Part shown: positions 5,835-59,066 of the stretch, one piece after another
How the letters are laid out: each line of letters begins with the position of its first letter
Position numbering within the stretch: the stretch's first letter is position 1
Source of the DNA: Bacteroidia bacterium
GTDB taxonomy: Bacteria > Bacteroidota > Bacteroidia > Chitinophagales > Chitinophagaceae
Length of the DNA: 64,000 bases
Assembly (NCBI GenBank): GCA_030427635.1
Contig: JAUIBA010000002.1
Coordinates: 124,001-188,000, forward strand
Reading direction: 5' to 3'
Made by a program: the position numbers and the translations under genes
Notes under the pieces: model-generated
The model's database searches: none
The model's input: the letters and a program-made list of their open reading frames with translations, nothing else
What the model was told of the DNA's origin: nothing

Positions 5835-6644
5835 ATGAAGTATCTGTTATGTTCATTGATATTGTTTTTAGGGGGTTTCCGGGCAGTGGCGCAGGCACCC
5901 TCCGGCAGGCCATTTGTGCTGGGAGTTACAGATAAGGTGCACTCTGCCGCATTGGGCGAAGACCGCATACTGAACATTTATCTCCCCGATGGTTATAAAG
6001 AAAACGCAGGGCGCGCTTATCCGGTTATTTATCTGTTGGATGGCTCAGCCAATGAAGACTTCATACATGTATGCGGTTTGGTTCAGTTCCTGAATATGAT
6101 AGGGTATATGCCATCTACAGTAGTGGTAGGCATTGCCAATGTAGACCGTAAGCGGGATTTTACCTTCCCCTCTGCTCTTGCCGGAGACCTGCAGAAAATA
6201 CCCAATGCAGGAGGTGCGGCAAAGTTTATTCAGTTTATGCATGCCGAGCTGAAGCCTTACATCAGCAGTCATTACAGGGTTAATGACTCTACCACACTCA
6301 TAGGCCAGTCGCTGGGAGGTTTGCTGGCTACTCAGTTGCTGCTGGAGCAGCCGGGGCTGTTCCGGAATTACATTATTGTAAGCCCCAGCCTGTGGTGGAA
6401 CAAAGAGTCGTTGCTCACACGGGCTGTCGCATTAATGCCGCAGGCAGTGGCAGCTACCACTGTTTATATCTCTGCCGGAGGCAGGGAGCCCGGTTTTATG
6501 AAAAAGGATGCAAAACGTTTATCCCGTCTGCTGAAAAAAGGCACAGCCATGAATATCCATTGGCAGCCGGAGCCTCATGAGAGCCACCTCACCATACTGC
6601 ACAACTGTCTGTATCATGCACTGGTGCGGCTGAATGGTCACTAA
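5835..6644 (+). CDS. Exported esterase (Fes/IroE-like alpha/beta hydrolase, PF00756 type)
   Basis: This 269-residue protein begins with a signal peptide ending near AVAQ (residues 1-20), so it acts outside the inner membrane. The alpha/beta-hydrolase features of the putative-esterase family are clear. ILNIYLPDGY and YPVIYLLDG are the first strands, LIGQSLGG carries the nucleophile elbow (Ser159), and EPHESHLTI near the C-terminus supplies the probable catalytic His. Related proteins hydrolyse siderophore esters or feruloyl and acyl esters; the substrate here is unknown. No iron-uptake genes are adjacent, so a siderophore role is not supported by context. Confidence 0.85.
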   Translation: MKYLLCSLILFLGGFRAVAQAPSGRPFVLGVTDKVHSAALGEDRILNIYLPDGYKENAGRAYPVIYLLDGSANEDFIHVCGLVQFLNMIGYMPSTVVVGIANVDRKRDFTFPSALAGDLQKIPNAGGAAKFIQFMHAELKPYISSHYRVNDSTTLIGQSLGGLLATQLLLEQPGLFRNYIIVSPSLWWNKESLLTRAVALMPQAVAATTVYISAGGREPGFMKKDAKRLSRLLKKGTAMNIHWQPEPHESHLTILHNCLYHALVRLNGH

Positions 6645-6724
6645 AAACAGATAATGATTGTATTTTATTGCTGACCCCAACCAGATATGGAATTATAACC
6701 GTCTGTTTATCAGAAATACCCCTT

Positions 6725-7678
6725 ATGAAGTCAATACACAATACTGCACTGATAGTTGGGGTGGCAATGGTTGCCATATTCTGGACAGCCTGTAAGAAAG
6801 AGTCGGCCAATAAGAAAACCTGTAGCACATCGCTGCATGCATTTACAGCACCACTCCCTTTGAGCAGTATATCATACACCTGCAAAGCAGGGTTGATAAA
6901 TACATCCACCGGTGCTATAACTTATGTTGGCTCTTTTTCGGGACGCTTGCCACTTACCCAGCGGGCCACATTCAATACTACCGATAATTGTTATTATGTC
7001 TTTGGCGACACCGCCACAGTAGTAGGCGCTACTCCTGCTGTTCTTTTTCGTGTCAGCGCTTCCGGTACTTCTGCCTTCTTTCCGGCCACGGGCAGCGCTG
7101 CACTACATTATGGCATTGTGTACAACAGTTACAACAACCGTCTTTATACTATCAGAGACTATATGCTGGCAGAGCTTTCTATATCAGGTGGTTCTTATAC
7201 TTCATCTGCTGTGGGCATTGGTGACACTCTTGATTATTATGCTAACATGACGGTGAACACCACTACAGGGGAAATCTATTACGTAGCCGGTAGCGCAGTT
7301 AGTGGTCGTGTCCTTAAGCGGTTTAATCCTGTTACCGGAGCAGTAGTACCCATATCTGTTCCTATGGGAGGCAGTGTTGTTTCTGAGATCAGGTATAATA
7401 ACAATGATGGCAATCTGTACTGTGTAGCCATTGATACAGGCACATACGTGAAAAAGATGTCCAGGATAAATCCATCTGCAGGTACGCTTACCTCTCTGGC
7501 TGTGATTGATTCTTTGAACGTTGACTTCTATTCAGCTACCATGGACGAGTGCAATAACCGATATGTCATTTCCACAGGCTATATGTCAGTGCATCTGCTG
7601 CAGTATAGCATAACGGGAGCCCTGCTCCAGGACGATATAACATCTTCCTTCTATCAGGGTATGGACGCCACACACTGA
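6725..7678 (+). CDS. Lipoprotein with probable beta-propeller fold (paralogue of 42667-43632)
   Basis: This 317-residue protein has a lipoprotein signal peptide and lipobox (IFWTACKKE; Cys at about residue 22). The start at 6725 (MKSIHNTALIVG) is chosen because it opens the signal peptide. The mature part contains repeated blocks of the kind YNSYNNRLYTIRD, VNTTTGEIYYVAG and YNNNDGNLYCVA. These look like blades of a beta-propeller reading out a value. A second copy of the architecture, with the same opening (CxT...CG...ISLATI-type first blade) and a matching DDC or DEC near the end, lies at 42667-43632 on the other strand. No catalytic motif. Location inferred as outer membrane or cell surface. 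Confidence 0.75.
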   Translation: MKSIHNTALIVGVAMVAIFWTACKKESANKKTCSTSLHAFTAPLPLSSISYTCKAGLINTSTGAITYVGSFSGRLPLTQRATFNTTDNCYYVFGDTATVVGATPAVLFRVSASGTSAFFPATGSAALHYGIVYNSYNNRLYTIRDYMLAELSISGGSYTSSAVGIGDTLDYYANMTVNTTTGEIYYVAGSAVSGRVLKRFNPVTGAVVPISVPMGGSVVSEIRYNNNDGNLYCVAIDTGTYVKKMSRINPSAGTLTSLAVIDSLNVDFYSATMDECNNRYVISTGYMSVHLLQYSITGALLQDDITSSFYQGMDATH

Positions 7679-10307: not shown

Positions 10308-10333
10308 ATAGATTGTTTTGTGCCGTAAAATAA

Positions 10334-10361
10334 CAAAGCTCCGGCATTGTCCGGAGCTTTG
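10334..10361 (-). terminator. Intrinsic terminator of the 10385-10777 gene
   Basis: An 11-bp perfect stem (CAAAGCTCCGG paired with CCGGAGCTTTG) encloses a 6-nt loop. On the minus strand it is followed by a T-rich stretch (TTATTTTA). It lies 24 nt after the stop of the exported protein ending at 10385 and upstream of the VOC start. Confidence 0.85.
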
Positions 10362-10384
10362 CAATGATATTTATCATCAGATAG

Positions 10385-10777
10385 TTACTCTATTGTTTCG
10401 CCAAATGCATTCAGCTTATCTATCATCTGGGCTCTGTTTGCTGCCATGTAACCATGTTTCAGGTTCATTACATCAGAAAACAGGCCACGCTGCTGCTTTA
10501 CTACTGCCCTGTATTTTGCTCTTACATCTTCATTGGCTGCATCACGCACTTTATAGCGTATTACTTTCATTTCAGCATTCACCAGAGTATTTACTTCACC
10601 GAACAGTTTATCGGCAGCCTCTGTATTACCATCGGTAATAGCATTATCCAGATCTTTTACTTTGGCGGCATATTCAGCTTTTGATACCGGCTGGGCCACA
10701 TCCAAAGGAGCAGACTGGGCAAAACCCGGTACAGATAGCGTAAAGCATACCGCAGCAGTGAGCAGTAGGTGTTTCAT
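10385..10777 (-). CDS. Small exported helical protein (paralogue 1 of a tandem pair)
   Basis: This 130-residue protein has a signal peptide (MKHLLLTAAVCFTLSVPGFAQ) and a fully alpha-helical mature part predicted to be a small helical bundle. It has the same length and layout as the next gene upstream (10821-11216). Both read signal peptide, then a PVS(K/A)xxxxAK-like opening, a D-N/Q-x-I-x-x-G-N motif, a middle helix with VNxxM or HDMMLNVLG, RxAxxxxxRAxxR, and a final helix with A-x-R-x-x-x-x-x-K-L. The pair looks like an old tandem duplication. No metal or catalytic signature is obvious and the function is unknown. A strong terminator follows. Confidence 0.75.
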   Translation of the reverse strand: MKHLLLTAAVCFTLSVPGFAQSAPLDVAQPVSKAEYAAKVKDLDNAITDGNTEAADKLFGEVNTLVNAEMKVIRYKVRDAANEDVRAKYRAVVKQQRGLFSDVMNLKHGYMAANRAQMIDKLNAFGETIE

Positions 10778-10820
10778 ATGGTAGATATTGTTTGTGCCGG
10801 AAGCTTGTCCGGATATCAGA

Positions 10821-11216
10821 TTAATAAATGGTAGCTGAAAACTCTCCCAGTTTGCTGTGTAGTGCTACGCGGTTTCCTGCCAGGTCAGGCTTCAGACCCC
10901 ATATGGTCTGATAAATTGCCGTCTGATTGTTCAGGATAGTGCGGAAAGAGGCTTCAGCTGTAGGAGTAGTTGCTGTACGTATGCTGTTTTTTGTAACACC
11001 CAGTACGTTGAGCATCATGTCATGTATCTCTTCCCATGTAGCCCGTGCTGCGGTAATATTACCAGCGCCTATCTGTGAGTCCATCAGGTCCACTTTGGCA
11101 TTAAAAACTGCTGTGGTTACTGCTGCCGGTGCAGGGGTATATGCCGAAACGGGCTCTACAGAAGTAATGCCTACTGTAGCCGTGAGCATGAAAAGGGCAA
11201 ATAAAACGCGTTTCAT
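10821..11216 (-). CDS. Small exported helical protein (paralogue 2 of a tandem pair)
   Basis: This 131-residue protein has a signal peptide (MKRVLFALFMLTATVGITSVE) and a helical mature domain matching the downstream gene in length and motif order. It shows FNAKVDLMDSQIGAGNITAARATWEEIHDMM, a central helix, and a closing ALHSKLGEFSATIY against DKLNAFGETIE in the paralogue. It precedes that gene by 43 nt, so both are probably on one transcript ending at 10334. Unknown function; periplasmic location inferred from the signal peptide. Confidence 0.75.
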   Translation of the reverse strand: MKRVLFALFMLTATVGITSVEPVSAYTPAPAAVTTAVFNAKVDLMDSQIGAGNITAARATWEEIHDMMLNVLGVTKNSIRTATTPTAEASFRTILNNQTAIYQTIWGLKPDLAGNRVALHSKLGEFSATIY

Positions 11217-13800: not shown

Positions 13801-14910
13801 TTATGCTCTCGTAGGTATTCCATACATCTGGTGCCAGTAGGCGTCTGGTATTTCCGTCATGCCGGCTATTTCTTTATCAATGGCTATACGCTTATACAGA
13901 TACTCTACATCCATATCATTACGGAATACAAAACGCCCCTCATTTACAGGATATCCATATGAGCGTAGTATGTTCAGGAACTTTTTACTGTTAAGCATTG
14001 CAGCCGTCCATGCTATGTCAGCTTTCAGTATTTCTGCCTGTTGTTCCTGATGTATCCGGCTTTGTGCATATCCTGCACTGCGGCTGCTGTTCGTAGTCTC
14101 TGTATTGCCCAGCACCGCTACAGATATTTCTTCATTCAGCGCTTTTATAAAAGAAAGCTGCAGGTCTCCGTCACTGTTAGACTGTTTGCCATCTACTATC
14201 TCGAAGTCGGCCTGCCGGGGTATCATCAGGGATAGTGAGCTACCGCTTTCATCCAGTATTCTGCGTAGCTCTGCCCGTGTCTGGTCGTCATAGGAGTCAT
14301 ACCTTATTACACGTACCGGCTGGCCAAACAGCTCTATATACTGTGCCCAGTCTGCCAGTCCGCCACGTTTATACAGGCAGTAAGGGGCACATCGCAGCAG
14401 CAGTCCCAGGTCATTGGGGTCACCGGTTACCCACACATTTTCCATTTCAGTATAGGGTATGCCATCCTGCCCGTTTTGTTCCCAGGTTATGATGCCGGTA
14501 TCAGGTTTTATGTGCTTTCTGGGTATCAGATTAAATGCCAGCTCACAGCCCGGTATGAATTCCATCGCTGATATACCCCATAATAATGTTTCTACCAGTG
14601 TGCGCACCACCTTGCGAAACGGTAATGATTGTATGACACTGTCCATTTCTTCCACATGTTTCCCTCCGGTTTCAAAGAATAGCTCTTTGTTAAGTACCGC
14701 ATTTATTTTCTTTGCCACTACACCAGAGAGGTGTCCATCAAGCATTATGTCCTCATACAGGTCATATAATCTGCTTCTGTTAGGGTTGTATACAGACTCT
14801 GCTGTGGTGAGCGCGGCTCTCCATGTGGCTATGTCCTTATAACCTCTGTCGGCGGAGCGTACATTAATTTCATTGATGATAAGAGGTTGTTGTTCTTTTG
14901 CTATATTCAT
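13801..14910 (-). CDS. Phage portal protein, DUF935 (Mu gp29-like) family
   Basis: This 369-residue protein resembles the DUF935 portal family of Mu-like phages. The N-terminus has DIATWRAALTTAESVYNPNRSRLYDLYEDIMLDGHLSGVVAKKINAV in outline. The middle has WGISAMEFIPG and a conserved GDPNDLGLLLRCAPYCLYKRGGLADWAQYIELFGQPVR region. The C-terminal part has VLGNTETTNSSRSAGYAQSRIHQEQQ, which is characteristic of the family. The portal forms the dodecameric ring through which the terminase drives DNA. The start is set at 14910 (MNIAKEQQPL); a longer frame would read back through a poly-C tract at 14987-14997. Length is shorter than Mu gp29 (about 512). Confidence 0.85.
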   Translation of the reverse strand: MNIAKEQQPLIINEINVRSADRGYKDIATWRAALTTAESVYNPNRSRLYDLYEDIMLDGHLSGVVAKKINAVLNKELFFETGGKHVEEMDSVIQSLPFRKVVRTLVETLLWGISAMEFIPGCELAFNLIPRKHIKPDTGIITWEQNGQDGIPYTEMENVWVTGDPNDLGLLLRCAPYCLYKRGGLADWAQYIELFGQPVRVIRYDSYDDQTRAELRRILDESGSSLSLMIPRQADFEIVDGKQSNSDGDLQLSFIKALNEEISVAVLGNTETTNSSRSAGYAQSRIHQEQQAEILKADIAWTAAMLNSKKFLNILRSYGYPVNEGRFVFRNDMDVEYLYKRIAIDKEIAGMTEIPDAYWHQMYGIPTRA

Positions 14911-14986
14911 GGCGGTTTTATTATGTTTTTTATTTGGTAATGTTGAAAAAAACTTATAATTGAATAACTTTACCGTACTGTTTTCA

Positions 14987-14997
14987 CCCCCCCCCCC
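14987..14997. repeat. Homopolymer tract (11 C) between divergent genes
   Basis: Eleven consecutive C bases lie 76 nt upstream of the portal start (minus strand) and 15 nt before the start of the membrane protein at 15013 (plus strand). Tracts of this length are prone to slipped-strand changes. Here it could alter spacing in either promoter or leader. Confidence 0.9.
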
Positions 14998-15012
14998 TTT
15001 ATCTGACACGAA

Positions 15013-15375
15013 ATGAGATCTATATTGTCGGCTAGTTATGCTGTATTCTTTCGGTTCAGCCGTTCTAAGGCCATTTCATATTGGTTAGGCATTGCTTATG
15101 TTTCGCTGCTTATTCTTTATGCAGCAGATGGGTTTACCATGCTCACTACAGGCTGGTTGTCTTTTATGTCTTCCCTGCGCATACTGTTTCGCTTCCCTGT
15201 TTCTATAGGAACATTTGCCCTTATCGGGTTTCTTTTGTTTCGCTTCGGCCCCAATATGCGCACAGTAGGTAAAGAAGCAAAAACAAATAAAAACTATCTG
15301 AACCTCTTGGTGATTACCGCTTTGGCCATACTCATGTTTGTGTATCTGAAGTATGGAGACAAAATCTTTATGTAA
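15013..15375 (+). CDS. Small membrane protein inside the phage-like cluster
   Basis: This 120-residue protein has three predicted membrane helices: about residues 24-45 (SYWLGIAYVSLLILYAADG), 58-78 (FRFPVSIGTFALIGFLLF) and 95-112 (LLVITALAILMFVYLKY). It is encoded on the plus strand while all phage-like genes around it are on the minus strand, so it is an insertion into or a leftover within the cluster. A holin role is possible from size and helix number, but the helices and charge pattern are not diagnostic. The start follows an 11-C tract by 15 nt. Family unknown. Confidence 0.6.
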   Translation: MRSILSASYAVFFRFSRSKAISYWLGIAYVSLLILYAADGFTMLTTGWLSFMSSLRILFRFPVSIGTFALIGFLLFRFGPNMRTVGKEAKTNKNYLNLLVITALAILMFVYLKYGDKIFM

Positions 15376-15388
15376 GGTTGTCTTACTA

Positions 15389-15823
15389 TCAGTAAAAATT
15401 ACTTCTTCGTTTATTGCTGTTCCAGCTTATGTTGTTTCCGGGAGGGATGTCTGTTATATCTGTTGTTGTAAGTGGCCATCCGTCAGGTTGTGCCTGTCCG
15501 GTCATGATTAACCGTAGCGTTTCCAGCGTGTCTTTGTAAGCCGTACGAAATCTGGTATAGTCGCCGGCTATGCCGGATAGGTGTATGAGATGCCAGCAGG
15601 CTATGTGCATTATCATGCGTTTCAGGTGCTCGTCATCTATTGCAGGGCTGCTGTGCCCATCGCCAAAGAGCTGTTCCAGATCATACCTGCCCAGGTACAT
15701 TTTAGCTTCACGTTCTGCAGCGGCTATTGCATGTTGTATTGTTGTATCATCACCCCGGGTCAACTCATCTAGTATTTCGGGGTACAGAATACCTGTCAGG
15801 TCTTCGGTCGATATCAGTGGCAT
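15389..15823 (-). CDS. Phage DUF1320 / Mu gp36-like head-tail connector protein
   Basis: This 144-residue soluble protein begins MPLISTEDLTGILYPEILDELTRGDD. It has AIAAAEREAKMYLGRYDLEQLF (about residues 33-54), followed by HLKRMIMHIACWHLIHL. This order is diagnostic of the DUF1320 (gp36) family: an N-terminal short helix, then the AxxEAxxYLxxRYD helix, then a hydrophobic helix with His and Trp. In Mu-like phages gp36 lies between the capsid genes and gp37. Here the capsid genes are missing and an exported protein plus the terminase genes lie upstream. Packaging or connector role inferred. Confidence 0.75.
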   Translation of the reverse strand: MPLISTEDLTGILYPEILDELTRGDDTTIQHAIAAAEREAKMYLGRYDLEQLFGDGHSSPAIDDEHLKRMIMHIACWHLIHLSGIAGDYTRFRTAYKDTLETLRLIMTGQAQPDGWPLTTTDITDIPPGNNISWNSNKRRSNFY

Positions 15824-15863
15824 AGGTAAGGGTTTAAGGGTTTTAGTTTGTAATTTCTATTAA

Positions 15864-16415
15864 TTAGTCGTCTTCTTCATCCGCATCTTTCTTTTTACTG
15901 CGAGTGGGCTGTTCTTCCTGCTCGTCATCTTCCTCTTCATCGTCATCATCACTTTTCTTTTTGGGAGTAGTTGCTTTCTTGCCACTACGCTCCTGCTTAT
16001 CTGACAGTGCTGGCTTTTCTATTTCCAGTGTATCTCCCGTGGGCTTAATTTTCACTATCTTTTTTTGTTTTCGGTCAAAAGTCAGCTCATAAACATTTAC
16101 AGCATCGTCTCCCAGTGTAAGGGTAATATAGCCCATCAGCATATTAGGGTCCGGGTGCTCACTCATGGAGTCTGCAACAGCATATATCTTCGGTATTGCT
16201 TTGGTTTGTTTTCTTATCTCAATCAGCTTTCTCCTTTCCTCGGCAAACTCCGGCAGGGTCAGTATCTGTCTGCGAAATACAGTTAGGTCTACTTTCTCAC
16301 TATTTGCCGCTCTGCGCTCTGCCTGCTCTTCCTTTCTGTCTTCTTTATCACGCTGGGCAAGAACTGTCTGCGCCATAAGGCATAGGCTTATTATTATCGA
16401 TAATCTGTATAACAT
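15864..16415 (-). CDS. Exported protein with highly charged C-terminal tail
   Basis: This 183-residue protein has a signal peptide (MLYRLSIIISLCLMAQTVLAQ). It continues as a charged helical segment (DKEDRKEEQAERRAANSEKV) and a compact middle domain (about residues 45-135) with MLMGYITLTLGDDAVNVYELTFDRKQKKIVKIKP. It ends in a low-complexity Lys/Asp/Glu tail with DDDDEEEDDEQEE. It is a normal-looking Bacteroidota envelope protein, not a phage protein, although it sits between the large terminase gene and the gp36-like gene on the same strand. No family recognised. The tail may be disordered. Confidence 0.75.
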   Translation of the reverse strand: MLYRLSIIISLCLMAQTVLAQRDKEDRKEEQAERRAANSEKVDLTVFRRQILTLPEFAEERRKLIEIRKQTKAIPKIYAVADSMSEHPDPNMLMGYITLTLGDDAVNVYELTFDRKQKKIVKIKPTGDTLEIEKPALSDKQERSGKKATTPKKKSDDDDEEEDDEQEEQPTRSKKKDADEEDD

Positions 16416-16464
16416 GTTCTTATTCAGTTATAAAGCAAATGTCAGAAAAAATACTATCCATTTA

Positions 16465-18066
16465 TCACCAGCCATTATTTCTCCCCGTTCGTATAGGGTT
16501 TGAAGTGTATATTCGGGTATCTGCCTGCTTATGCTGCCCTTTTAGTATCCATATAGCCCCCTCTACAGCATCCGGGCCATCATCATGGGCATTGCTGCCG
16601 GCTGCAAATGCGCGAAACTGCTCCACCAGGCGTAGCATATGTGGGTTGTGTCGTTCTTCCTCACTCAGGTACAGCTCACAGTTGCGTACCATAGGCTCCA
16701 GTAACCCTTCTATCCTCACATACTTATTAGGCTTTTTTCTGCTGTCTCCTTTTACCCACATTTTTATGCCTGCCCGTTTGCTGGCTTCATTCACTTCATT
16801 TATAATAACATCCTGCATAAATACCTCTTCCATATAAAAAGTACAAGCCATACCATTTACATATTCTGCTATGCGGTGTAGCCATGCTATCATTCTGGCT
16901 GTGGTGGTTTGCTCCAGATAGCATTTCAGCACATGATACGCTGTCCCTGCTCTGCCTATTAGCACCGTTGCCTTATAGTCACAGGTGTCTTTATATGAGG
17001 GGTCGGTATAGCATATCAGCGCATCATATTCATTCAGTGGCTTTGCTGGTTTCCAGGCCAGCTCGCTGAACACGCTGCCTTCCGTTAGCGGATTGTTGAA
17101 GTATTCCTTTTGTTGTGCAGCATAGCTTTTCTGGCTCAGCACCCGGTCTATATCAGTTTCACTGTTCTTCTCCGGCCATACCGATATCCCATTGCTGTCC
17201 CTTATGTTCACGGTTTCGGCATAGTCTGCTATATCTGCCGCTCTGGTTATGCAGCAGTCCTGAGCTATACGATTGCCACAGAAAATGATGGTGGTGGGCA
17301 TAGATACAGAGCGTGTGCCTATTGCAGCTTCCTCTATCCAGTGCCACTTTGGGGCCACTATTTGTGTATTCAGGCATTCCGCATCTGTATCTACGTCATC
17401 AAACAGTAGTATATCGGGTCTTGCCTCCTCATTTCTGGTTCCCCGGGGACTTTGTCCCGCCCCTACAGCTCTGAATGATGCCCCTCCTGTTGTTATAAAT
17501 TCCTGGCTGGTCCATGTTCCCGTTCCAGCCTGCTGTCCATAGTCCTGTATCAGCCGCTTGTTATATTGCAGGTTTGCACGGTAGGGCATCAGTAGCCGTG
17601 CAGCATTATCCACACTATTGCTTATCATGAGCACGCACCGCTTGCGCATACGGTTATGGGTATTGGTTCCTCCTCCGGCCCGGGTTATCACCCGGTGGCG
17701 CAGTGCATCAGTAACTATTGCAGGCGCCTCTCCCTGCTCTTTGTCTGGTAGCCTGTGCCCTGCGAAAACAAGGTAAAACACCTCCATCATAGTGCGGGTA
17801 CTCTTAGCCAGCTCCCTGCTCCACATCCGCACCTCACACCACTCGGCATTGTCCAGTACTCGCTGGCTTGCCGCTATATGAAAGGCCGAGGGCGCAGCAT
17901 ATGCAAACTTTGGGAAGTAATAGCAAAACCATGCTTCGGGGTCATTTTCCAGCGCTGCTCTCCGTCGGGCTATATCGTCCTTATGTTCCTCGTTTATTAT
18001 CATGGTGCCGCTCTGTATCATACGTATCAGCTCGCGCCACCTGTTTTTCATTGTGCTGTCTGTCAT
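16465..18066 (-). CDS. Phage terminase large subunit (Mu gp28-like)
   Basis: This 533-residue packaging motor has an ATPase half and a nuclease half. The ATPase carries a Walker-A-like SRELAKST (residues 83-90) and Walker B ILLFDD (219-224). A conserved GAGQSPRGTR and a coupling-type TTIIFCGN (259-265) are also present. The RNase-H-like nuclease carries the three acidic motifs CYTDPSY (Asp355), YMEEV (Glu413/414) and HDDGPDA (Asp495/496/499). All key residues are intact, so it is not decaying. It would translocate and cut DNA with a small subunit (18099-18533, just upstream) and a portal (13801-14910). Such conservation without capsid genes is unusual. Confidence 0.9.
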   Translation of the reverse strand: MTDSTMKNRWRELIRMIQSGTMIINEEHKDDIARRRAALENDPEAWFCYYFPKFAYAAPSAFHIAASQRVLDNAEWCEVRMWSRELAKSTRTMMEVFYLVFAGHRLPDKEQGEAPAIVTDALRHRVITRAGGGTNTHNRMRKRCVLMISNSVDNAARLLMPYRANLQYNKRLIQDYGQQAGTGTWTSQEFITTGGASFRAVGAGQSPRGTRNEEARPDILLFDDVDTDAECLNTQIVAPKWHWIEEAAIGTRSVSMPTTIIFCGNRIAQDCCITRAADIADYAETVNIRDSNGISVWPEKNSETDIDRVLSQKSYAAQQKEYFNNPLTEGSVFSELAWKPAKPLNEYDALICYTDPSYKDTCDYKATVLIGRAGTAYHVLKCYLEQTTTARMIAWLHRIAEYVNGMACTFYMEEVFMQDVIINEVNEASKRAGIKMWVKGDSRKKPNKYVRIEGLLEPMVRNCELYLSEEERHNPHMLRLVEQFRAFAAGSNAHDDGPDAVEGAIWILKGQHKQADTRIYTSNPIRTGRNNGW

Positions 18067-46294: not shown

Positions 46295-46302
46295 CAAAGA
46301 TA
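46295..46302 (-). promoter_or_regulatory. -7 promoter box (TATCTTTG) 8 nt before ATG
   Basis: This TAnnTTTG match on the minus strand is 8 nt from the ATG at 46286. Confidence 0.5.
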
Positions 46303-46511: not shown

Positions 46512-48695
46512 ATGAGCCTTATAAACGAAGGAGTAAAGAGAGGTCTTATCTCAGTAATCACTGAAAACGAAGAGATCAGACAGATTACATATCTGAATCA
46601 GAATGTAAAACGAAGCTATTCTAATCCCGAAGAAAAAGTACAGGTTGAGACATTTCTCAAATTGATTATTGATTATGGTTACAAGCCTGGGCGTATCCGT
46701 CAGTTTGTTACTGTGAAAATGGGTGTTGACGCAAGACAGGCCGATATTGTCGTTTACAATGATGATGCGTGCGAACAGCCTCACATTTTAGTAGAATGCA
46801 AACGACAGGAGGTTAGTGAGCAGGAGTTTTTACAGGCTATAGAGCAAGCATACAGTTATGCCTATGCACTCCCGAATGATGTGAAATATGTTTGGGTAAC
46901 GTCTGAAATCAAGAATGAATATTTTGAAGTTGATAAGAAGAAAAACACCCGCGTTTCTCAACCGGACATACCACAGTATGGCGTAAAAAAGCTGGCTAAC
47001 TATAAGTATGTTTCTGAAGCAGAAACATTGACTCAGCAAGAGGGAAAACAAAAGTTCTTTGACCTTTCAATTATTAATCAGGATGAGTTAACCAGACGTT
47101 TCAAACAAGCTCATGATGCTCTTTGGGCAGGTGGGCAGTTAAACCCATCTGAAGCGTTTGACGAATTGGATAAGTTGATTTTCTGTAAAATCTGGGATGA
47201 GAAAAAACCACGTAAGGCAGGCGAACCTTACGACTTTCAAATCATAACGGTAGATAAAGAAGAAGAACCAGACGCCATTAAACGAAAAATAAAAGAAAAC
47301 GAAAATCTCTATAAAAGGATAAAAGCCTTGTATGAGGAGGGGAGAAAGAAGGATGCAGAAGTATTCCGGGATGATATACGGCTGTCGCCTGAAAAAATAA
47401 GAACGGTTGTAGGTTACCTCGAAAGTATAAATTTAGGAGACACTGACCTGGATAGCAAAGGCCGCGCTTTTGAGACGTTCATGGATTCATTCTTCAGAGG
47501 AAACTTTGGTCAGTATTTCACGCCTAGGCCAATTGTACAATTTACAACCGATGTGCTGCCAATAAAAAATGATTCTTTCGTTTTAGATACGTCTTGCGGT
47601 AGTGGTGGCTTCTTGTTATATGCGTTGAATAAGGTTCGCAGGCAGGCCGATGAGCTTTATCCAAAGCCAAGGAATAACAAACAATATGAAAAATGGAAAG
47701 CTTACTGGCATGACTTTGCCGAAAGAAATCTATACGGTATTGAAATCAATGAGCAAATTTCCCGGGCAGCCAAAATGAACATGATAATTCATGATGATGG
47801 ACATACCAATGTTATCACATCTGATGGACTCATTTCTACCAGTGACATAGAGAAGATTACTAAAAATACCGGGTTTAAATACAATCATTTTGATTTCATC
47901 ATTACTAATCCCCCCTTTGGCTCAACGATAAGAAGTAGTGAGAAGAGTTATCTTGCCGGTTATGACTTTGGCAAAAAAGAGCCTGATTGGCTGGATGTAA
48001 AAGGGAGGAAAGAATCGGAAAGAAGGGAGAATCAAAACACCGAAATCTTATTTATAGAACAGTGCCACCGGTTTTTGCGCGAAGGAGGATATCTCGCTAT
48101 TGTTTTACCCGATGGTATATTAACAAACAGTAGCCTGCAATATGTAAGAGACGGCATCGAGGATAAATTCAGGATTGTGGCTGTAGTATCTATGCCGCAA
48201 AGTGCCTTTACTGCTACGGGTGCTGGTGTAAAGAGTTCAGTATTATTTCTCAAAAAGCATCCATCTGGCCATACAGACTATTTGCGTAATAAAAAGGCTT
48301 TTATCCAGACCAGACTAAAGGAAGAGCATAATTATTATAAAAAGATTGAAGCCTGGGATAAGGAGAAAGCCCAAAAAATCAAAGATATGCAGGGGTTCAA
48401 TAACCCAACCCCAACTTTGAGCCTCTCAGAAGTAAAAAAGACCGAAGAGTATAAGGAGTGGAAGGCGGAAGTAAACAGTTATTATAATGACCTGCTGAAT
48501 GACTTAAAGGAGCAGTTACAGGATGCCTTTATTGCCGCAAAGCAAAAGGAACTCCCCGATTACCCCATTTTTATGGCAATAGCCGAAGATATTGGTTATG
48601 ATGCTACAGGAAAGAAAACTAACAACAATGAACTGGACTTCATAGGAAAAGAACTAATGAAGTTCATCAATGAAATAGAAAACACTACACTATGA
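46512..48695 (+). CDS. Nuclease-methyltransferase fusion: PD-(D/E)XK domain plus HsdM-type N6-adenine methylase
   Basis: This 727-residue protein has two parts. Residues 1-170 resemble the type I restriction R N-terminal (HSDR_N_2-like) fold, with Asp78, Glu95 and Lys97 (QADIVVYNDD...ILVECK) forming a PD-(D/E)XK catalytic triad. Residues about 190-660 are an HsdM-like N6-adenine methylase: GRAFETFMDSFFRGNFGQYFTPRPIV, SAM motif I VLDTSCGSGG (357-366) and catalytic NPPF (466-469). A charged coiled tail ends the protein. In type I systems HsdR and HsdM are separate; here nuclease and methylase share a chain, as in type IIG/IIB (BcgI-like) enzymes, with a separate HsdS downstream. The stop overlaps the next start (ATGA). 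Strikingly AT-rich, suggesting transfer. Confidence 0.88.
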   Translation: MSLINEGVKRGLISVITENEEIRQITYLNQNVKRSYSNPEEKVQVETFLKLIIDYGYKPGRIRQFVTVKMGVDARQADIVVYNDDACEQPHILVECKRQEVSEQEFLQAIEQAYSYAYALPNDVKYVWVTSEIKNEYFEVDKKKNTRVSQPDIPQYGVKKLANYKYVSEAETLTQQEGKQKFFDLSIINQDELTRRFKQAHDALWAGGQLNPSEAFDELDKLIFCKIWDEKKPRKAGEPYDFQIITVDKEEEPDAIKRKIKENENLYKRIKALYEEGRKKDAEVFRDDIRLSPEKIRTVVGYLESINLGDTDLDSKGRAFETFMDSFFRGNFGQYFTPRPIVQFTTDVLPIKNDSFVLDTSCGSGGFLLYALNKVRRQADELYPKPRNNKQYEKWKAYWHDFAERNLYGIEINEQISRAAKMNMIIHDDGHTNVITSDGLISTSDIEKITKNTGFKYNHFDFIITNPPFGSTIRSSEKSYLAGYDFGKKEPDWLDVKGRKESERRENQNTEILFIEQCHRFLREGGYLAIVLPDGILTNSSLQYVRDGIEDKFRIVAVVSMPQSAFTATGAGVKSSVLFLKKHPSGHTDYLRNKKAFIQTRLKEEHNYYKKIEAWDKEKAQKIKDMQGFNNPTPTLSLSEVKKTEEYKEWKAEVNSYYNDLLNDLKEQLQDAFIAAKQKELPDYPIFMAIAEDIGYDATGKKTNNNELDFIGKELMKFINEIENTTL

Positions 48696-50239
48696 TTATA
48701 AGAGGTATTCTAGACAAATCACTAAGTAAACAAACATGCATTCGTGGTTTTGCACGGATTAAAGAGCTTGCAAGAATTTCGAAGGCTAATCCTGAATATC
48801 AAAGGGAGTTAATTGATAAGCATATCGCAAAGACTTCCAACTTCCTGACGGAAGAAACTTATCTGTTTTTCCCAGAAGTAATTTTAAGTGCAAAATTAAA
48901 ATACGATTACACTAAAGTTGGTGCAAAGAAGGGGCCGTCTCCTATTACGTTAATTGAAACAAAGAAGCTCTTCAAATCAAATGTTGACGGGCTTTCGATA
49001 AGGACGTTTGAAAAGAAGAATAGCAAAGCATTTGATGTTGGAGGGCGTAATGAAGTCAAAATTGTAGAGTTAGAGTTTGATGAAGGTTTGTTGCTCCAAT
49101 TAATTGAAAGGAATGAACATCCACTGCATAGAGTAGATGGGAACCACAGATTGAGTTCCGCCGAACAGCTTAATGGAGATAGAATTAATCAGATGGATGT
49201 GCCTTTCTGTATTGTTCTATTTGAAGAACTAACACAGGAAAGATTCAATCCTGAAAAAAATGCGATGGAAATATATACAGATAGATCCTTTGAGAAATTT
49301 GAGCGGGTCGTGTTTTATAATATTAATTCTAAGTCAGAACCGTTGACGCTTGAACAAAACTTACGAGTAATAATAGATGATAAAGTCAATTTTTCTAGTG
49401 AGGATATCGAGAAAATATTTCCAACAACCGGTATAAAAATAAGAGAGCTGGTCAGCAGGATTGATTTTAATTTTTTTACAGGAATAAAACATCTTTTAAA
49501 CAACAACTTTAGAAATCTTTCGAAAACTATTTTCGAGAGTCTGAGGGATGAAAATCAAGAAACAATCGTAGAAAAGGTCATTGACTCTCTGAAGGCTGTT
49601 GAGCAATTATATATTACCGAAGAAACTTTGAAGGATAATAAAAGCGAAGGGCTTTTCACTACTTTCTTGTATTACAATATTAGAGACAAAGTTAAATATA
49701 GCTTTTTCAAAGAGTGGGTTTTAAAAAACCACATTTTTGATATAGAAGAAGTCAGATATCAAACTTTAATTCAAATTTTCGATAAAATAGCTGAAAGCAC
49801 AATCAAAATCTTTGTTGCAATGCCATACTTCAGCGATGATGAAGTTAATGAGTATAACTTAACTTACAACAGAGTTATTGACAAGATTAAAGAGCAGTCA
49901 CCGTTAATCAATATTGCTTTGTATCCTATCATGCAGCACAAGGGCGAAACGTATAACATTAATAACAAAATGATAGAGCAAATAAATGAAGCCTCTATTG
50001 TTATAGCGGACATTAGTAATAGGAATATCAATGTAGCTTTTGAACTGGGTTATGCAAGAAGTGCCAAGAAACCAACTATAATGGTAAAGAGAGAAGATGA
50101 TACAATTCGTACTCCTTTTGATTACGAACAGGATATGTGCCATACCTATAATTCAAAAGCTCACCAAACATTGGTGAACGTAGTGTATGAAAATGTTAAA
50201 GAAGAGCTGCTGAAGCGTGGATTTATTTTTAAGAATTAG
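48692..50239 (+). CDS. DGQHR/ParB-like protein with C-terminal NDT/TIR-like domain
   Basis: In this 515-residue protein residues 1-370 resemble DGQHR/DndB- or ParB-like proteins. The entry motif NPEYQREL is at 33-40, HRVDGNHRLSSAEQL at 146-160, and a FYNINSKSEPLT segment at 208-219, as in DGQHR/DUF262-type proteins. Residues 371-515 form a Rossmann-like domain: IKIFVAMPYFSDDE, then INEASIVIADISNRNINVAFELGYARSAKKPTIMV. The ADISxxNxNVxFELGYA pattern is shared with nucleoside 2-deoxyribosyltransferase- and TIR-like nucleotide-processing domains, some of which degrade NAD or nucleotides in phage defence. It overlaps the methylase stop by 4 nt and precedes HsdS by 35 nt. A defence effector role is inferred. 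Confidence 0.75.
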   Translation: MIIRGILDKSLSKQTCIRGFARIKELARISKANPEYQRELIDKHIAKTSNFLTEETYLFFPEVILSAKLKYDYTKVGAKKGPSPITLIETKKLFKSNVDGLSIRTFEKKNSKAFDVGGRNEVKIVELEFDEGLLLQLIERNEHPLHRVDGNHRLSSAEQLNGDRINQMDVPFCIVLFEELTQERFNPEKNAMEIYTDRSFEKFERVVFYNINSKSEPLTLEQNLRVIIDDKVNFSSEDIEKIFPTTGIKIRELVSRIDFNFFTGIKHLLNNNFRNLSKTIFESLRDENQETIVEKVIDSLKAVEQLYITEETLKDNKSEGLFTTFLYYNIRDKVKYSFFKEWVLKNHIFDIEEVRYQTLIQIFDKIAESTIKIFVAMPYFSDDEVNEYNLTYNRVIDKIKEQSPLINIALYPIMQHKGETYNINNKMIEQINEASIVIADISNRNINVAFELGYARSAKKPTIMVKREDDTIRTPFDYEQDMCHTYNSKAHQTLVNVVYENVKEELLKRGFIFKN

Positions 50240-50274
50240 GGGCTTAGTTTCGAATACACGAAGAAAAACTAGTA

Positions 50275-51675
50275 ATGTATCAATTGAAAGAAAATAGTAG
50301 GCGGAATATATTTGTTGTAAATCGTTCAGAACTTTTTGAACGATTTGATGCTCTGTTTTACAAAGAGAGGTTAAACCTAGATTCTTATATAAAACTATCG
50401 AAAATAGCAAAAATATCTGGTGGGAAAAGGATTCCGAAGGGGTTTGAATTTCTTACAGAAAAAAGCCCGTATCGTTATTTAAGAGTAGGAGATGTGAGCT
50501 GGGATGGAAGGCTAGATTATGACAGTTTTAAATACTTGTCTAAAGAGGTATATGATATTTTGAAAAGGTATGAGATATTCAAAGATGAGCTATTGATTGC
50601 TATCGTAGGTGCGACGGTGGGGAAAGTAGCGATATTAGATGTTGAAGATGACTGTACAGACAGAATTATCCTTACTGAGAATTGTGCAAAAATTTCGATT
50701 TCGAATAACAGCGTACTTCCACAGTTTTTGCTTTTAATATTGCAAAGCAACATAGTCCAACAACAAATAAAACTGAACTACATACAAACAACATTGCCGA
50801 AGCTTGGACTCGACAGGGTTGAGTCATTGCTCATTCCACCAATACCATCTATTGCAATGCAAACGGAAATAGTCCGAAAATACCAAGCAGCATTCAATGA
50901 AAAACAAAGAAAAGAAGCAGAAGCTAAAGAGCTGATTAAGAGTATTGATGCTTTTCTCGGGAGTGAATTGCAGTTGTGTGCAACAGAAAGCGGAAGTGGA
51001 ATCAGCGATAGGGTTTTCAGAGTAGATCGTTCGTTTTTATACAAAAGATTGGATGCAGCTGTTTATAAGCCGTCTTTCAAATTTAAGTCCAATATATACG
51101 AGGTTCACAAACTCTCAGATTTAGTATACATCAATCCTCAAACTTCTTTTAATAGGCTAAACCCTGATTCTGAAATATCTTTTGTTCCAATGGATGCAAT
51201 TGATGAAGAGAATGGAGTAGTTAAATATTTCAATAAGAAAAGAGTTTATCTGTCCAAAGGGTTTACAAGATTTAAAAATGGCGATTTGATTTGGGCAAAA
51301 ATAACGCCATGCATGCAAAATGGGAAGTCTGCTGTAGTTTACGATGCGTTACAAGGGTATGCATGTGGGTCAACCGAGTTTTACGTGATACGCCCAAAGA
51401 CCAATGATGTGATTGTAGAGTATGTGCATTTATTTTTACGTGACAGAAGGGTTTTAGAATATGCCCAAAATTACTTTGGTGGGTCAGCCGGTCAACAAAG
51501 AGTTTCCAAGGATTTTTTCGCCAACTTTCAAATCCCATTACCCCCGAGATTAAAACAACTAGCGATATTGAAACACATAGACGGGATCAATAAAAAAATC
51601 CTTCACCTCAGAAGTGAGGGAGATATTGGATTAGAAGAGGCTAAGCAAGAAATTGAACAAATGATTTTGGGATAA
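50275..51675 (+). CDS. Type I restriction specificity subunit (HsdS)
   Basis: This 466-residue protein has two target-recognition domains and two long helices. TRD1 is about residues 12-175 (NRSELFERFDALFYKERL ... LSKIAKISGGKRIPKG, PYRYLRVGDV), then a coiled helix (AFNEKQRKEAEAKELIKSIDAFL). TRD2 is about 245-430 (VDRSFLYKRLDAAVYKPSF ... VYINPQTSFNRL), then PLPPRLKQLAILKHIDGINKK and a final helix. The halves are visibly repeated (NRSELFERFDALFY / DRSFLYKRLDAAVY), as expected for a bipartite target site. It directs the upstream methylase-nuclease to DNA. It is the last gene of the island; no HsdR follows. Confidence 0.93.
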   Translation: MYQLKENSRRNIFVVNRSELFERFDALFYKERLNLDSYIKLSKIAKISGGKRIPKGFEFLTEKSPYRYLRVGDVSWDGRLDYDSFKYLSKEVYDILKRYEIFKDELLIAIVGATVGKVAILDVEDDCTDRIILTENCAKISISNNSVLPQFLLLILQSNIVQQQIKLNYIQTTLPKLGLDRVESLLIPPIPSIAMQTEIVRKYQAAFNEKQRKEAEAKELIKSIDAFLGSELQLCATESGSGISDRVFRVDRSFLYKRLDAAVYKPSFKFKSNIYEVHKLSDLVYINPQTSFNRLNPDSEISFVPMDAIDEENGVVKYFNKKRVYLSKGFTRFKNGDLIWAKITPCMQNGKSAVVYDALQGYACGSTEFYVIRPKTNDVIVEYVHLFLRDRRVLEYAQNYFGGSAGQQRVSKDFFANFQIPLPPRLKQLAILKHIDGINKKILHLRSEGDIGLEEAKQEIEQMILG

Positions 51676-56312: not shown

Positions 56313-56397
56313 CGGGAAAAGCAAGAGAAGAGATTAGGCACTGTTGTGGTAAAGTAATCAAAATGGGTAAAACAGATAATGTCGCAGCAAATCCATT

Positions 56398-56405
56398 TAC
56401 CTTTG
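56398..56405 (+). promoter_or_regulatory. -7 promoter box (TACCTTTG) 6 nt before ATG
   Basis: This TAnnTTTG match ends 6 nt before the ATG at 56412 of the first GT-C-like protein. It makes an upstream start at 56379 unlikely. Confidence 0.5.
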
Positions 56406-56411
56406 CACGAA

Positions 56412-57737
56412 ATGAATATGCCTGGCATCAATATGTTTAATACAACACTTGAAAGTTTTACAAACTCATGGAAGAAGTATTTTTTCAAATACGTATTGAT
56501 AGTGTTTCCAATATTTGTACAATTTTTATTCATATGTAAATACTCTTTGAATATTCCCCGATATGACGATTATGATTCCATAATAGAGCTGGTAACAAAC
56601 TTCCAGACAACTGCATTTCCCGGGAACATATACCATTTGTTCGATCAGCATATTGAACATAGAATTTTTACAACAAGATTGGTATCTGTTCTTTATTATA
56701 AGGTTTTTGGGAATATAAACTTCCGGGGACTGATATTCTTTAATTTCTTTCTGGCTGTTTTACTATTTGGCTCGTTGATACATGTTATTAGAAAGATTGT
56801 TCCCAGATATTGGCACTATGTAGCCATTGTTGTCAGTTTATGCTGTTTTGATATGATAAATACAGAAAACAGTAACTGGGCAATGTCCGGTATTCAGAAC
56901 TATGGAGTTACGCTTTTCTTTATTTCCAGTATGATTCTTTATGGTCGTAATGGTAAGGGAAATACAATAGCTGCATTTTTATTGCAGGTATTATGTATAT
57001 ACACAAGTGGCAATGGTCATGTAGCCTCATTATTCATTGTTATATATAATCTTTTTTCGGGCAGCAGAAAGAAATTTGTCATCTCATTGCTTACCATGCT
57101 GGTTTTCTCGTCACTTTATTACTATCACTATAACTCTGTGAACTCAACATTTACAGATGATATGGAAAAGGTGCTCCCCTTCTTTTTACACGCTGTTGGC
57201 TCCCACTTCAGTTTTGATTATGGCATTCCGGCCGGTGTCGTTATTCTCGTTATCTTCTTTGCATTACTAGGTCGGGAAATAATAAAGTTACCCAGATTAG
57301 ATAAGACTATCCTGCCTTTATTATGCATTGCCGGATACGCAATTGCCTCCCAGGTTCTGATGTCTTTTTTCAGGGGAAATTTGCCGGTTGTTGTCTCTTA
57401 TTCCAGCAGGTATATAGGGTACTCACATCTGCTGTTGATTGTAATGTTTACCTATCTGGTATTCAGGATAGAAAAGGATAACTTTAGTTTGATGATGGTG
57501 GATAATACCCACAGGGCAAGGATTCCACTTATCCCAATTGTGATAATAATATGCAGTATTTCTTATCTGTATAATTATGACGATGGGAAAAAGGCGTATG
57601 AAGGTATGCACCATATCCTTGCAACAGAGAGGTATTACTTTCCTGACTCGGTGAAGGCTAAGAGGATAACTGATGATGCCTGTAGACTGAAGATATACTG
57701 TATTGAAAATCAGAGAATAGAACTTACAGAAGAGTAA
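56412..57737 (+). CDS. Polytopic membrane protein, probable GT-C-type glycosyltransferase (tandem copy 1)
   Basis: This 441-residue protein has about ten to eleven membrane helices. After the first helix the first outside loop contains PRYDDYDSIIELV, placing an Asp-Asp pair where GT-C glycosyltransferases carry their catalytic acid. It is followed by DQHIEHRIFTTRLVSVLYY. The next gene shows the same blocks (PREDDYDAILVFL, TQHNEHRIVPSRIVYAIYY, GMQN-FGV-type middle, SRYxxYSHLL near the end), so the two are tandem paralogues. Lipid-linked sugar transfer is inferred from fold and from the neighbouring epimerase and GT2 genes. A short soluble tail ends it. Confidence 0.7.
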   Translation: MNMPGINMFNTTLESFTNSWKKYFFKYVLIVFPIFVQFLFICKYSLNIPRYDDYDSIIELVTNFQTTAFPGNIYHLFDQHIEHRIFTTRLVSVLYYKVFGNINFRGLIFFNFFLAVLLFGSLIHVIRKIVPRYWHYVAIVVSLCCFDMINTENSNWAMSGIQNYGVTLFFISSMILYGRNGKGNTIAAFLLQVLCIYTSGNGHVASLFIVIYNLFSGSRKKFVISLLTMLVFSSLYYYHYNSVNSTFTDDMEKVLPFFLHAVGSHFSFDYGIPAGVVILVIFFALLGREIIKLPRLDKTILPLLCIAGYAIASQVLMSFFRGNLPVVVSYSSRYIGYSHLLLIVMFTYLVFRIEKDNFSLMMVDNTHRARIPLIPIVIIICSISYLYNYDDGKKAYEGMHHILATERYYFPDSVKAKRITDDACRLKIYCIENQRIELTEE

Positions 57738-57785
57738 CCCCGTTACTGTTTATTTTGTTCCGGCATATATAAATTGCTACGAAAC

Positions 57786-59066
57786 ATGCAAAATGCTTAT
57801 CGCATAGGGAATAAATTAATGCCCTACATACTTTATATAGCAATACTGCTCCCACTGGTGGTATTTTATTACTATGTATATAAGTATGCAACCAATATGC
57901 CCCGCGAGGATGACTATGATGCGATTCTGGTTTTTCTGACCAAATACAAGTATGCTGATTTTCAGGGCCGGCTTTCGTTACTGTTTACACAACACAATGA
58001 GCACAGGATAGTACCATCAAGAATTGTATATGCGATATACTACTCTATTACTGGTCAGATAAATTTCAGACATCTGATTCTGCTCAATGCCGGAATACTG
58101 ACATTGCTCTTTCTTAATATTTCGTTGTTTGTAAAAAAGGCAATCCCGGAGTATTGGCAGGTATGTGTTCTTGTCACAAGCATGTGTGTCTTTGATTTGA
58201 GTGGATTTGAGAATATGAACTTTGCAATGGCTGGAATACAGAACTTCGGTGTTATACTGGCATTTACAGCTAGCCTCTATTTTTATGGAAAAAATCCCAA
58301 AGGGTTTCTTGTACTGGCGTTGCTATTGCAGTGTATATGTACATTTTCAAGCGGAAACGGGAATCTTGGTTCTGCAATAATTGTCTTGTATGCCCTTTTT
58401 ACAAAAGACAAAACAAAAATCACAGTTGCTCTGGCTACATTTCTCATATCCGCCCCGCTTTATTATCTCCATTATATAAAACCCCAGACTAACTTTTTTA
58501 CACTGGACCCATTTAAGTTCATTCCATTTTTCCTGCATGCAGCAGGGGCACACTTTAGTCTTACTTATGGGATATCTGCAGGTGGGCTTCTTTTTGCAAT
58601 ATTAATAGCTGCCAGACCAATTGGAAAAAGGTTATCTATTGCGGCTAGTCGGCTACCTATTGTGTGTCTTGCTCTGTTTGCTATCGGTTCATTGGGAGTT
58701 ATGTCATTATTCAGAGGAAATATGCCATTGTGGTGTTCTACAGCCAGCAGGTACCATATATATTCTCATTTACTTACAGCGATTGCATTTGTATTTCTGG
58801 TAATAGAAATGAAAAATGAGCGGATAGTCAGGTCAATGATGTTTACCATTGTTGTAGGTTTATTCTTCTTTTATAACTGGAATGTGAAAGATGGTGGCTA
58901 TGGTATGAAGGCTTTCAGAACTGAACTTCGTTCAATGAATTACCACTATCCTGATTCATCACGGGCAAGAGTTATATCAGAAGAGGCATGCAAAGAAGGT
59001 ATCTACTGTATAGAAAAACATCGGGCAGATAAAATACCTGCGGTGTTCGGGTCGGTTGAGGAGTAA
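57786..59066 (+). CDS. Polytopic membrane protein, probable GT-C-type glycosyltransferase (tandem copy 2)
   Basis: This 426-residue protein has about eleven membrane helices and is paralogous over its length to the preceding gene, 48 nt away. Shared blocks are PREDDYDAI in the first outside loop, HNEHRI, SNENMNFAMAGIQNFG-type, SGNGNLGSAIIVLYALF, LFRGNMPLWCSTASRY and YHYPDSSRARVISEEACKEGIYCIE at the C-terminus. The start at 57786 (MQNAYRIGN) is preferred over an upstream TTG. The pair may add two different sugars to a surface glycan whose precursors are made by the downstream epimerases. Confidence 0.7.
   Translation: MQNAYRIGNKLMPYILYIAILLPLVVFYYYVYKYATNMPREDDYDAILVFLTKYKYADFQGRLSLLFTQHNEHRIVPSRIVYAIYYSITGQINFRHLILLNAGILTLLFLNISLFVKKAIPEYWQVCVLVTSMCVFDLSGFENMNFAMAGIQNFGVILAFTASLYFYGKNPKGFLVLALLLQCICTFSSGNGNLGSAIIVLYALFTKDKTKITVALATFLISAPLYYLHYIKPQTNFFTLDPFKFIPFFLHAAGAHFSLTYGISAGGLLFAILIAARPIGKRLSIAASRLPIVCLALFAIGSLGVMSLFRGNMPLWCSTASRYHIYSHLLTAIAFVFLVIEMKNERIVRSMMFTIVVGLFFFYNWNVKDGGYGMKAFRTELRSMNYHYPDSSRARVISEEACKEGIYCIEKHRADKIPAVFGSVEE

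Follow-up and report, generated by a model that had tools for sequence, protein, structure and literature searches.

Known systems and organisation of the locus

Few restriction enzymes are known to possess a suicide arm of their own, and the textbook case is PrrC, which accompanies Type I enzymes and combines an ABC NTPase with an anticodon nuclease. PrrC is described as a latent anticodon nuclease embedded in the Type I operon EcoprrI (PMC3874165, PMC12707154). For Type IIB enzymes, a restriction-modification (RM) fusion protein and a specificity (S) subunit are reported to suffice, with no translocase (PMC11997821, PMC3874165). BsaXI comprises a 916-residue RM and a 476-residue S protein, and its cutting requires the residues E73, D90, E105 and K107 (PMC11997821). 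The locus studied here occupies positions 46,512 to 51,675 of a 64,000-nucleotide stretch of DNA from a Bacteroidia bacterium (contig JAUIBA010000002.1; the whole stretch is hereafter the window). It encodes both proteins of a Type IIB-like enzyme and a third, middle protein, in which a DGQHR domain of the DndB/ParB type appears to be joined to a domain of the NDT/TIR fold. Our preferred reading, put forward tentatively and at slightly less than an even chance, is a Type IIB restriction enzyme whose third protein would act as a guardian or backup effector in the manner of PrrC, destroying NAD+ or another nucleotide. The genes are arranged as follows:

46512..48695, + strand: RM gene, fused PD-(D/E)XK nuclease and N6-adenine methyltransferase of the Type IIB RM-subunit type, 727 aa (open reading frame (ORF), Pfam, BsaXI alignment)
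48692..50239, + strand: middle gene, DGQHR domain and NDT/TIR-like domain, 515 aa (ORF, domain searches)
50275..51675, + strand: S gene, specificity subunit of the HsdS type containing two target recognition domains (TRDs), 466 aa (Methylase_S, two stretches)
48692..48695, + strand: ATGA, RM stop and middle-gene start, a 4-nt overlap (ORF coordinates)

All three ORFs are intact and lie on the plus strand, with a 35-nt gap between the middle and S genes. The layout given in the initial annotation, including the ATGA overlap and the gap, was reproduced in full, and the 4-nt overlap is repeated by coordinates in four other loci (L003, L004, L032 and L071). The locus is AT-rich compared with its flanks, as had been noted: the GC-content is 36.8% for 46512–51675 versus 46.7% in the remaining window, and the window's GC minimum at this length begins at 46301 (in 100-base steps), overlapping the locus almost wholly. 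Repeats within the locus are short and chance-like only, and ARAGORN found no tRNA in the 64-kb window. No further defence genes were seen adjoining the three, and inspection of the window's ORF lists, with no dnd model run, revealed no dnd genes. Because the flanking genes look ordinary, the locus is a single inserted three-gene unit and not a cluster of defence systems; the earlier term "defence island" somewhat overstates it.

Restriction core

The domains of the RM protein relevant to restriction and modification are:

46626..46973, + strand: HSDR_N_2 nuclease domain, residues 39–154, with D78, E95 and K97 (Pfam, E = 1.3e-15)
47451..48401, + strand: N6_Mtase domain, residues 314–630, with NPPF at 466–469 (Pfam, E = 4.8e-36)

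The best solved relative of the RM protein is RM.BsaXI (E = 7.9e-39; E = 3.9e-52 with an eight-row RM profile). The two are collinear over residues 29–702, and 172 of 532 aligned residues are identical over residues 29–585. The nuclease triad proposed in the initial annotation (Asp78, Glu95, Lys97) is present and aligns with the essential BsaXI residues D90, E105 and K107, while the position of BsaXI E73 falls in an alignment gap. The triad is the same in all nine sequences that bear the nuclease domain, the window's counted, and the domain is absent from two of the 11 RM sequences compared. The top PADLOC model for this gene is "Type I methyltransferase" (640 bits). Since the RM protein has 727 residues versus 916 in BsaXI, it is probably without the C-terminal paddle of the latter; the S proteins are alike in size (466 and 476 aa).

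The S subunits swap halves. Between the window and L010, identity is 45% in TRD1 and 19% in TRD2, while the S subunits of L009, L032 and L033 display 46–63% identity in TRD2 and 22–24% in TRD1. Such a pattern looks like that expected of a working family of bipartite site specificities.

The assignment of the RM and S genes as a Type IIB-like (BsaXI/BcgI) enzyme, forming the restriction core of the locus, is well supported: the RM fusion, the two-TRD S subunit, the D/E/K residues and the lack of a translocase are shared, and the locus differs from these enzymes in having a third conserved gene. The ORF list of the locus contains nothing resembling hsdR, in agreement with its description as one without HsdR. 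The novelty first ascribed to this absence was dropped, because Type IIB enzymes already restrict with the same two proteins and need no translocase. The restriction core is therefore known, and the middle protein is the new part. The three-protein combination was not found in the open-access literature, searched by titles and abstract openings, and no PADLOC-DB protein model spans the middle protein. The claim of a new arrangement fails for an RM–S pair lacking HsdR and stands, within the literature searched, for the set of three proteins. MAD2 and MAD5 of the MADS system are distant relatives of RM and S; MADS was rejected, as the scores were far under the cut-offs (303 against 720 bits for MAD2 and 60.7 against 400 bits for MAD5).

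Elsewhere in the genome, two hsdR genes score above the family cut-off, and a third match is weak, partial and under that cut-off. The two hsdR genes adjoin hsdS and a methylase gene of their own and therefore look like separate Type I systems; the supply of HsdR from elsewhere was dropped on these grounds. It had been considered that an hsdR gene might lie elsewhere and the fused nuclease lack an active site; hsdR genes do lie elsewhere, but the nuclease site is intact. A small 147-aa HSDR_N_2 protein is also encoded elsewhere in the genome (G000:C22:66988-67314, L027).

Distribution and operon linkage of the middle gene

The middle protein was found at 10 distinct loci, comprising the window, seven loci reached via the middle protein or its profile and two via the DGQHR family. 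Nine belong to the window's phylum (Bacteroidota where named), and one is on a Leisingera plasmid. The RM gene is in the same operon in all 10. The order RM-mid-S occurs in five loci (the window, L003, L004, L032 and L071) and RM-S-mid in four (L009, L010, L033 and L070, the last with one gene between S and the middle gene). The plasmid locus (L008, NZ_CP109788.1, 6858-9101) holds one gene, annotated "N-6 DNA methylase", in which a piece of the methylase runs on in frame into the larger, C-terminal part of the middle protein; no S gene is listed adjoining, and the fusion is evidently a deletion remnant. Thus, the three-gene set, which the initial annotation proposed to look for in other genomes, exists there in two gene orders.

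Scanning genome contigs with the middle protein gave two loci, and the protein was present in 3 of 395 phylum genomes, in 1 of 195, 3 of 296 and 1 of 248 genomes of overlapping sets, and in a single one of 72,556 plasmid records (Leisingera), the same record being the only one found among them with RM at E = 1e-80. None of 50,697 phage records contained it, and none of the 58 pattern stretches for the middle protein in viral contigs was confirmed. With no phage or viral-contig match and only the Leisingera plasmid record, a phage or plasmid origin was dropped. The DGQHR-family search gave matches in 23 of 164 genomes, and the C-terminal domain was present in at least 2 of the 23 proteins; this is a lower bound, because the threshold of the TIGR03187 search was too strict to recover even the protein of the window.

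The search was also conducted from the side of the RM protein. Among the 395 genomes, nine matched RM at E ≤ 1e-60. In five of the nine, identity reaches 50% or more, and the middle gene is present in three of these (G000, G210 and G065); G137 (locus L021) lacks it, and G168 (L022) ends at a contig edge. The remaining four, at 36–38% identity, have no middle gene. At 1e-100, four matches were obtained in the 296 genomes, three with the middle gene (G210 again, G550 and G600) and one, G562 (43–47% identity, a single 841-aa frame), without it. The more distant relatives L023–L026 and L044 (33–43% identity) show no middle gene: L023 is broken up by other ORFs, L024–L026 are methylases without a nuclease domain, with an S-like tail in L024 and L026, and the 841-aa frame of L044 probably has its own recognition part.

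RM can exist without the middle gene, and the middle gene was not seen without RM. Conservation shows the middle protein to be a regular, not universal, partner of this methylase; its absence from homologous loci, raised beforehand as a possibility, applies to one close locus (L021) and not as a rule. That locus is also what speaks for the middle gene being unrelated to an otherwise ordinary Type IIB enzyme and merely hitch-hiking in its operon. We regard such a passenger as very unlikely: linkage is kept in 10 of 10 loci while the gene order varies, none of the 10 middle-gene homologues lies far from RM genes, and the gene is under purifying selection (see below).

In L021 (7657-10702), the genes immediately after RM and S encode a membrane-like protein of 206 aa and a protein resembling KwaB (PF16162, E = 1.3e-20), suggestive of a Kiwa system.

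The DGQHR part of the middle protein

The N-terminal features of the middle protein are:

48785..49606, + strand: DGQHR (DndB/ParB-like) domain, residues 32–305 (TIGR03187 below cut-off; hhalign)
49130..49150, + strand: RVDGNHR motif, residues 147–153 (R147 and D149–R153 invariant in 10 of 10)

The match with TIGR03187 (E = 5.4e-6, 26.3 bits) is under the curated cut-off of 58.85, and three of eight members of the middle-protein family match at 0.01. The hhalign comparison of the N-terminal part with 11 DGQHR proteins gave a probability of 92.8, versus 0.1–0.5 for five control pairings. The 11 proteins were taken from the 23 matches of the TIGR03187 search, leaving out L068 and L069 (of the middle-protein type themselves), L059 and L061 (no frame with the motif) and, by choice, the longer proteins L050, L057 and L062–L067. 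The model of the full-length protein, based on a three-row alignment, was uninformative (mean pLDDT 36.7). The sequence comparisons indicate that the N-terminal part is a divergent DGQHR (DndB/ParB-like) domain.

The likeness to DndB and DpdB consists of the DGQHR domain and its operon with DNA-modifying enzymes. Unlike them, the middle protein continues into an additional TIR/NDT-fold domain at its C-terminus, it was seen in the company of neither dnd nor dpd genes, and the associated modification is methylation as opposed to sulfur or deazaguanine. Binding of ATP and GTP is reported for a DndB-like protein (PMC12704722), and the authors of a Dnd survey suggest that DndB could serve as a backup effector or regulator (PMC10853773).

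The C-terminal domain and its predicted active site

The C-terminal features are:

49790..50236, + strand: NDT/DNPH1/TIR-fold domain, residues 367–515 (model, Foldseek, VIA-align)
50042..50044, + strand: Glu451, putative catalytic glutamate (invariant in 10 of 10; aligned with the ELG Glu)

Residues 373–472 match Nuc_deoxyrib_tr (PF05014) with 30.3 bits, above the gathering score of 28.8. Of eight members of the middle-protein family, four match at E ≤ 1. The L032 protein scored 23.6 bits, below the cut-off, and L009, L010 and L033 gave no match. The model of the C-terminal part has a pLDDT of 79.6 and a pTM of 0.80. Deoxyribosyltransferases were its top Foldseek matches, and a fold comparison with VIA-align did not separate NDT from TIR. 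The profile search of the PDB with the middle-protein alignment gave three weak matches, two with deoxyribosyltransferases (E = 0.24 and 0.75) and one with a ribosomal protein (E = 0.36). The C-terminal part thus models as the NDT/DNPH1/TIR N-glycosidase fold and not as an unrelated one. The two-part DGQHR and NDT/TIR make-up read from the sequence in the initial annotation is corroborated by the hhalign result, the motif and this model.

In the alignments, Glu451 takes the place of the ELG glutamate in NDT and Rcl/DNPH1, and Phe374, a Phe in all 10 proteins, that of Tyr13 in the NDT of Trypanosoma brucei (2a0k). All 10 proteins have Met, Ile or Leu at the position tentatively assigned, by a weak pairwise alignment, to Asp80 of human DNPH1. 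The Tyr is reported to touch the catalytic Glu in NDT and DNPH1, which prefer 2'-deoxy substrates, whereas TIR NADases usually have Phe or Ala there (PMC11204291). Because the Tyr is replaced by Phe374 and the Asp, if placed correctly, by aliphatic residues, deoxynucleotide chemistry is disfavoured; the residue pattern would argue against ordinary deoxyribosyltransferase chemistry and fit an NADase-type site. In its modelled fold and glutamate position, the middle protein resembles the N-glycosidases NDT, DNPH1 and MilB, the NDT-like effector of Retron-Eco1 (PMC12887533, PMC12405507) and possibly TIR NADases; it differs from this group in the missing Tyr and probably missing Asp of NDT/DNPH1, the DGQHR fusion and the RM-enzyme partner.

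NDT enzymes exchange bases on deoxyribose, and the DGQHR NTPase and the glycosidase-fold domain might together replace or remove a base at RM–S sites, as a second DNA modification. DpdB, a ParB-like ATPase, is reported to serve base insertion in Dpd systems (PMC12839542), which lends this idea some support. Nevertheless, we consider it extremely unlikely, given the same substitutions of the deoxyribose-linked residues (the Tyr by Phe and the tentatively placed Asp by Met, Ile or Leu, both in all 10 proteins).

Lineages and selection

The C-terminal domain tree is divided into two types (support 1.000, branch length 1.09), which match the gene order: the five RM-mid-S loci versus the four RM-S-mid loci and the fusion. 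The RM tree is split in the same way (0.983), and L021, although devoid of the middle gene, groups there with the RM-S-mid loci; therefore, the domain types may simply be two operon lineages. The tree of the N-terminal part departs from this for L071, whose long branch lies apart from the remaining RM-mid-S proteins (0.950), hinting at either exchange or a rate artefact.

The ratio of non-synonymous to synonymous substitution rates (dN/dS) was obtained for the L003/L004 pair only, most pairs being saturated. The values were 0.036 for the N-terminal part, 0.026 for the C-terminal part and 0.031 for RM (NG86; synonymous sites near saturation), so in this one measurable pair the middle gene is under purifying selection. 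The middle protein changes faster than RM, as judged from dN values of 0.659 and 0.155, respectively, for L010/L070.

These data bear on the possibility that the middle protein is a DndB-like regulator, where the DGQHR domain would sense NTP and repress or pace the expression or assembly of RM, and the C-terminal part would be a nucleotide-sensing remnant and not a toxin. The DGQHR motif is present in DndB, and a rise of dndCD transcripts by about 15-fold is reported when dndB is deleted (PMC4507180); DndB has also been described as an ATP-dependent repressor (PMC12704722). The position of the middle gene after RM or S in one operon would suit autoregulation. However, the Pfam scan of middle proteins recognised no DNA-binding domain, Glu451 is kept in 10 of 10 proteins, the C-terminal part has a dN/dS as low as that of the N-terminal part, and the maintenance of two divergent C-terminal domain types is unexpected for a remnant. 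On balance, we find a regulator of this kind unlikely, though worth serious consideration.

Accessory genes

The gene for a DUF5655-type protein with a nuclease-like N-terminal part adjoins the operon in 3 of the 10 loci (BLAST), the DUF5655 domain being named for L004 and L010 only:

L004:12912-13814, L010:5021-5944, L032:12801-13709: DUF5655-type genes, two of them lying downstream of S and the third upstream of RM

Three of 10 is a lower bound, because flank lengths differ (just 5,964 bases in L003) and because ORF or gene lists were the basis for judging the neighbours of the window's locus and of L008. The RM frame of L032 (7901-9697) begins with 43 unrelated residues and has lost the nuclease domain, while the methylase, the middle protein, S and the DUF5655-type gene are kept. 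This set, together with the DUF5655-type partners of the other loci, could point to a methylation-marked abortive system, where the nuclease would be weak or dispensable, RM and S would chiefly serve to recognise and mark sites, and the real effector would be the middle protein, joined at some loci by accessory nucleases. We judge this improbable, since the nuclease triad is intact in all nine sequences with the domain and L032 may be decaying, its 5′ end running into an unrelated ORF on the opposite strand.

Other neighbours were observed at single loci. In L071, S is followed (6520-7188) by the gene for an 8xMP membrane protein (octameric family, E = 1.8e-22), possibly a further effector. 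In L070, two ORFs adjoining the RM gene (14798-16595) resemble, by eye, an AbiEi/AbiEii pair, and the gene between S and the middle gene (10329-11165) encodes a 278-aa protein without a Pfam match at 0.01. Just upstream of RM in L003 (~230-430) lies the gene for a small protein that looks, by eye, like a helix-turn-helix protein and resembles a controller gene; in this contig, which is a draft, the frame of the first RM codons seems to be shifted.

Proposed mechanism

The first steps of the mechanism that we propose for the Type IIB-like enzyme and its putative backup effector have strong in silico support: S, with its two TRDs, would choose a bipartite site, where two RM chains would bind, methylate adenine in host DNA and cut unmethylated DNA via the N-terminal PD-(D/E)XK domain, without a translocase. 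The middle protein, as conservation shows, is a regular partner of this RM–S enzyme. The later steps are modelled by analogy. The DGQHR domain may bind NTP and/or the RM–S–DNA complex and keep the C-terminal domain inactive. When restriction is engaged but failing, or is inhibited by a phage protein, the TIR/NDT-fold domain could be released or self-associate and might then attack NAD+ or another nucleotide at its N-glycosidic bond, resulting in a growth stop.

The guardian step is suggested by analogy with PrrC. EcoprrI and the present locus both feature an effector-type gene within an RM operon, alike in position only, and nucleotide-binding-type and toxin-type domains in one chain. The domains of the middle protein are DGQHR and TIR/NDT-fold ones, with none of PrrC's own, and because of this difference the locus is not a PrrC-type member and only a possible analogue; the likeness would be one of operon layout and two-part design, not homology.

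A more specific version is possible, though doubtful: a new class of RM guardian, in which a Type IIB enzyme would be physically coupled to an NTP-gated TIR-type NADase, inhibited or overwhelmed restriction would lead to NAD+ loss and abortive infection, and two effector subtypes would be tied to the two gene orders and two enzyme lineages. A Type IIB enzyme with a DGQHR-TIR/NDT partner would unite restriction, the DndB/ParB NTP switch and TIR/NDT effectors in a compact operon. Such a locus would make the role of the DGQHR switch, disputed in DNA-modification systems, directly testable, and would offer a small system for studying how cells sense failed restriction.

Other features of the window

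Genes for a Mu-type portal protein (13801-15006, minus strand; PF06074, E = 2.9e-66) and the large subunit of terminase (16465-18066, minus strand; phrog_38, E = 1.5e-60) appear to represent a prophage or prophage remnant. The second low-GC stretch of the window (~38%), at 56379-59066, encodes two similar-looking tandem membrane proteins.

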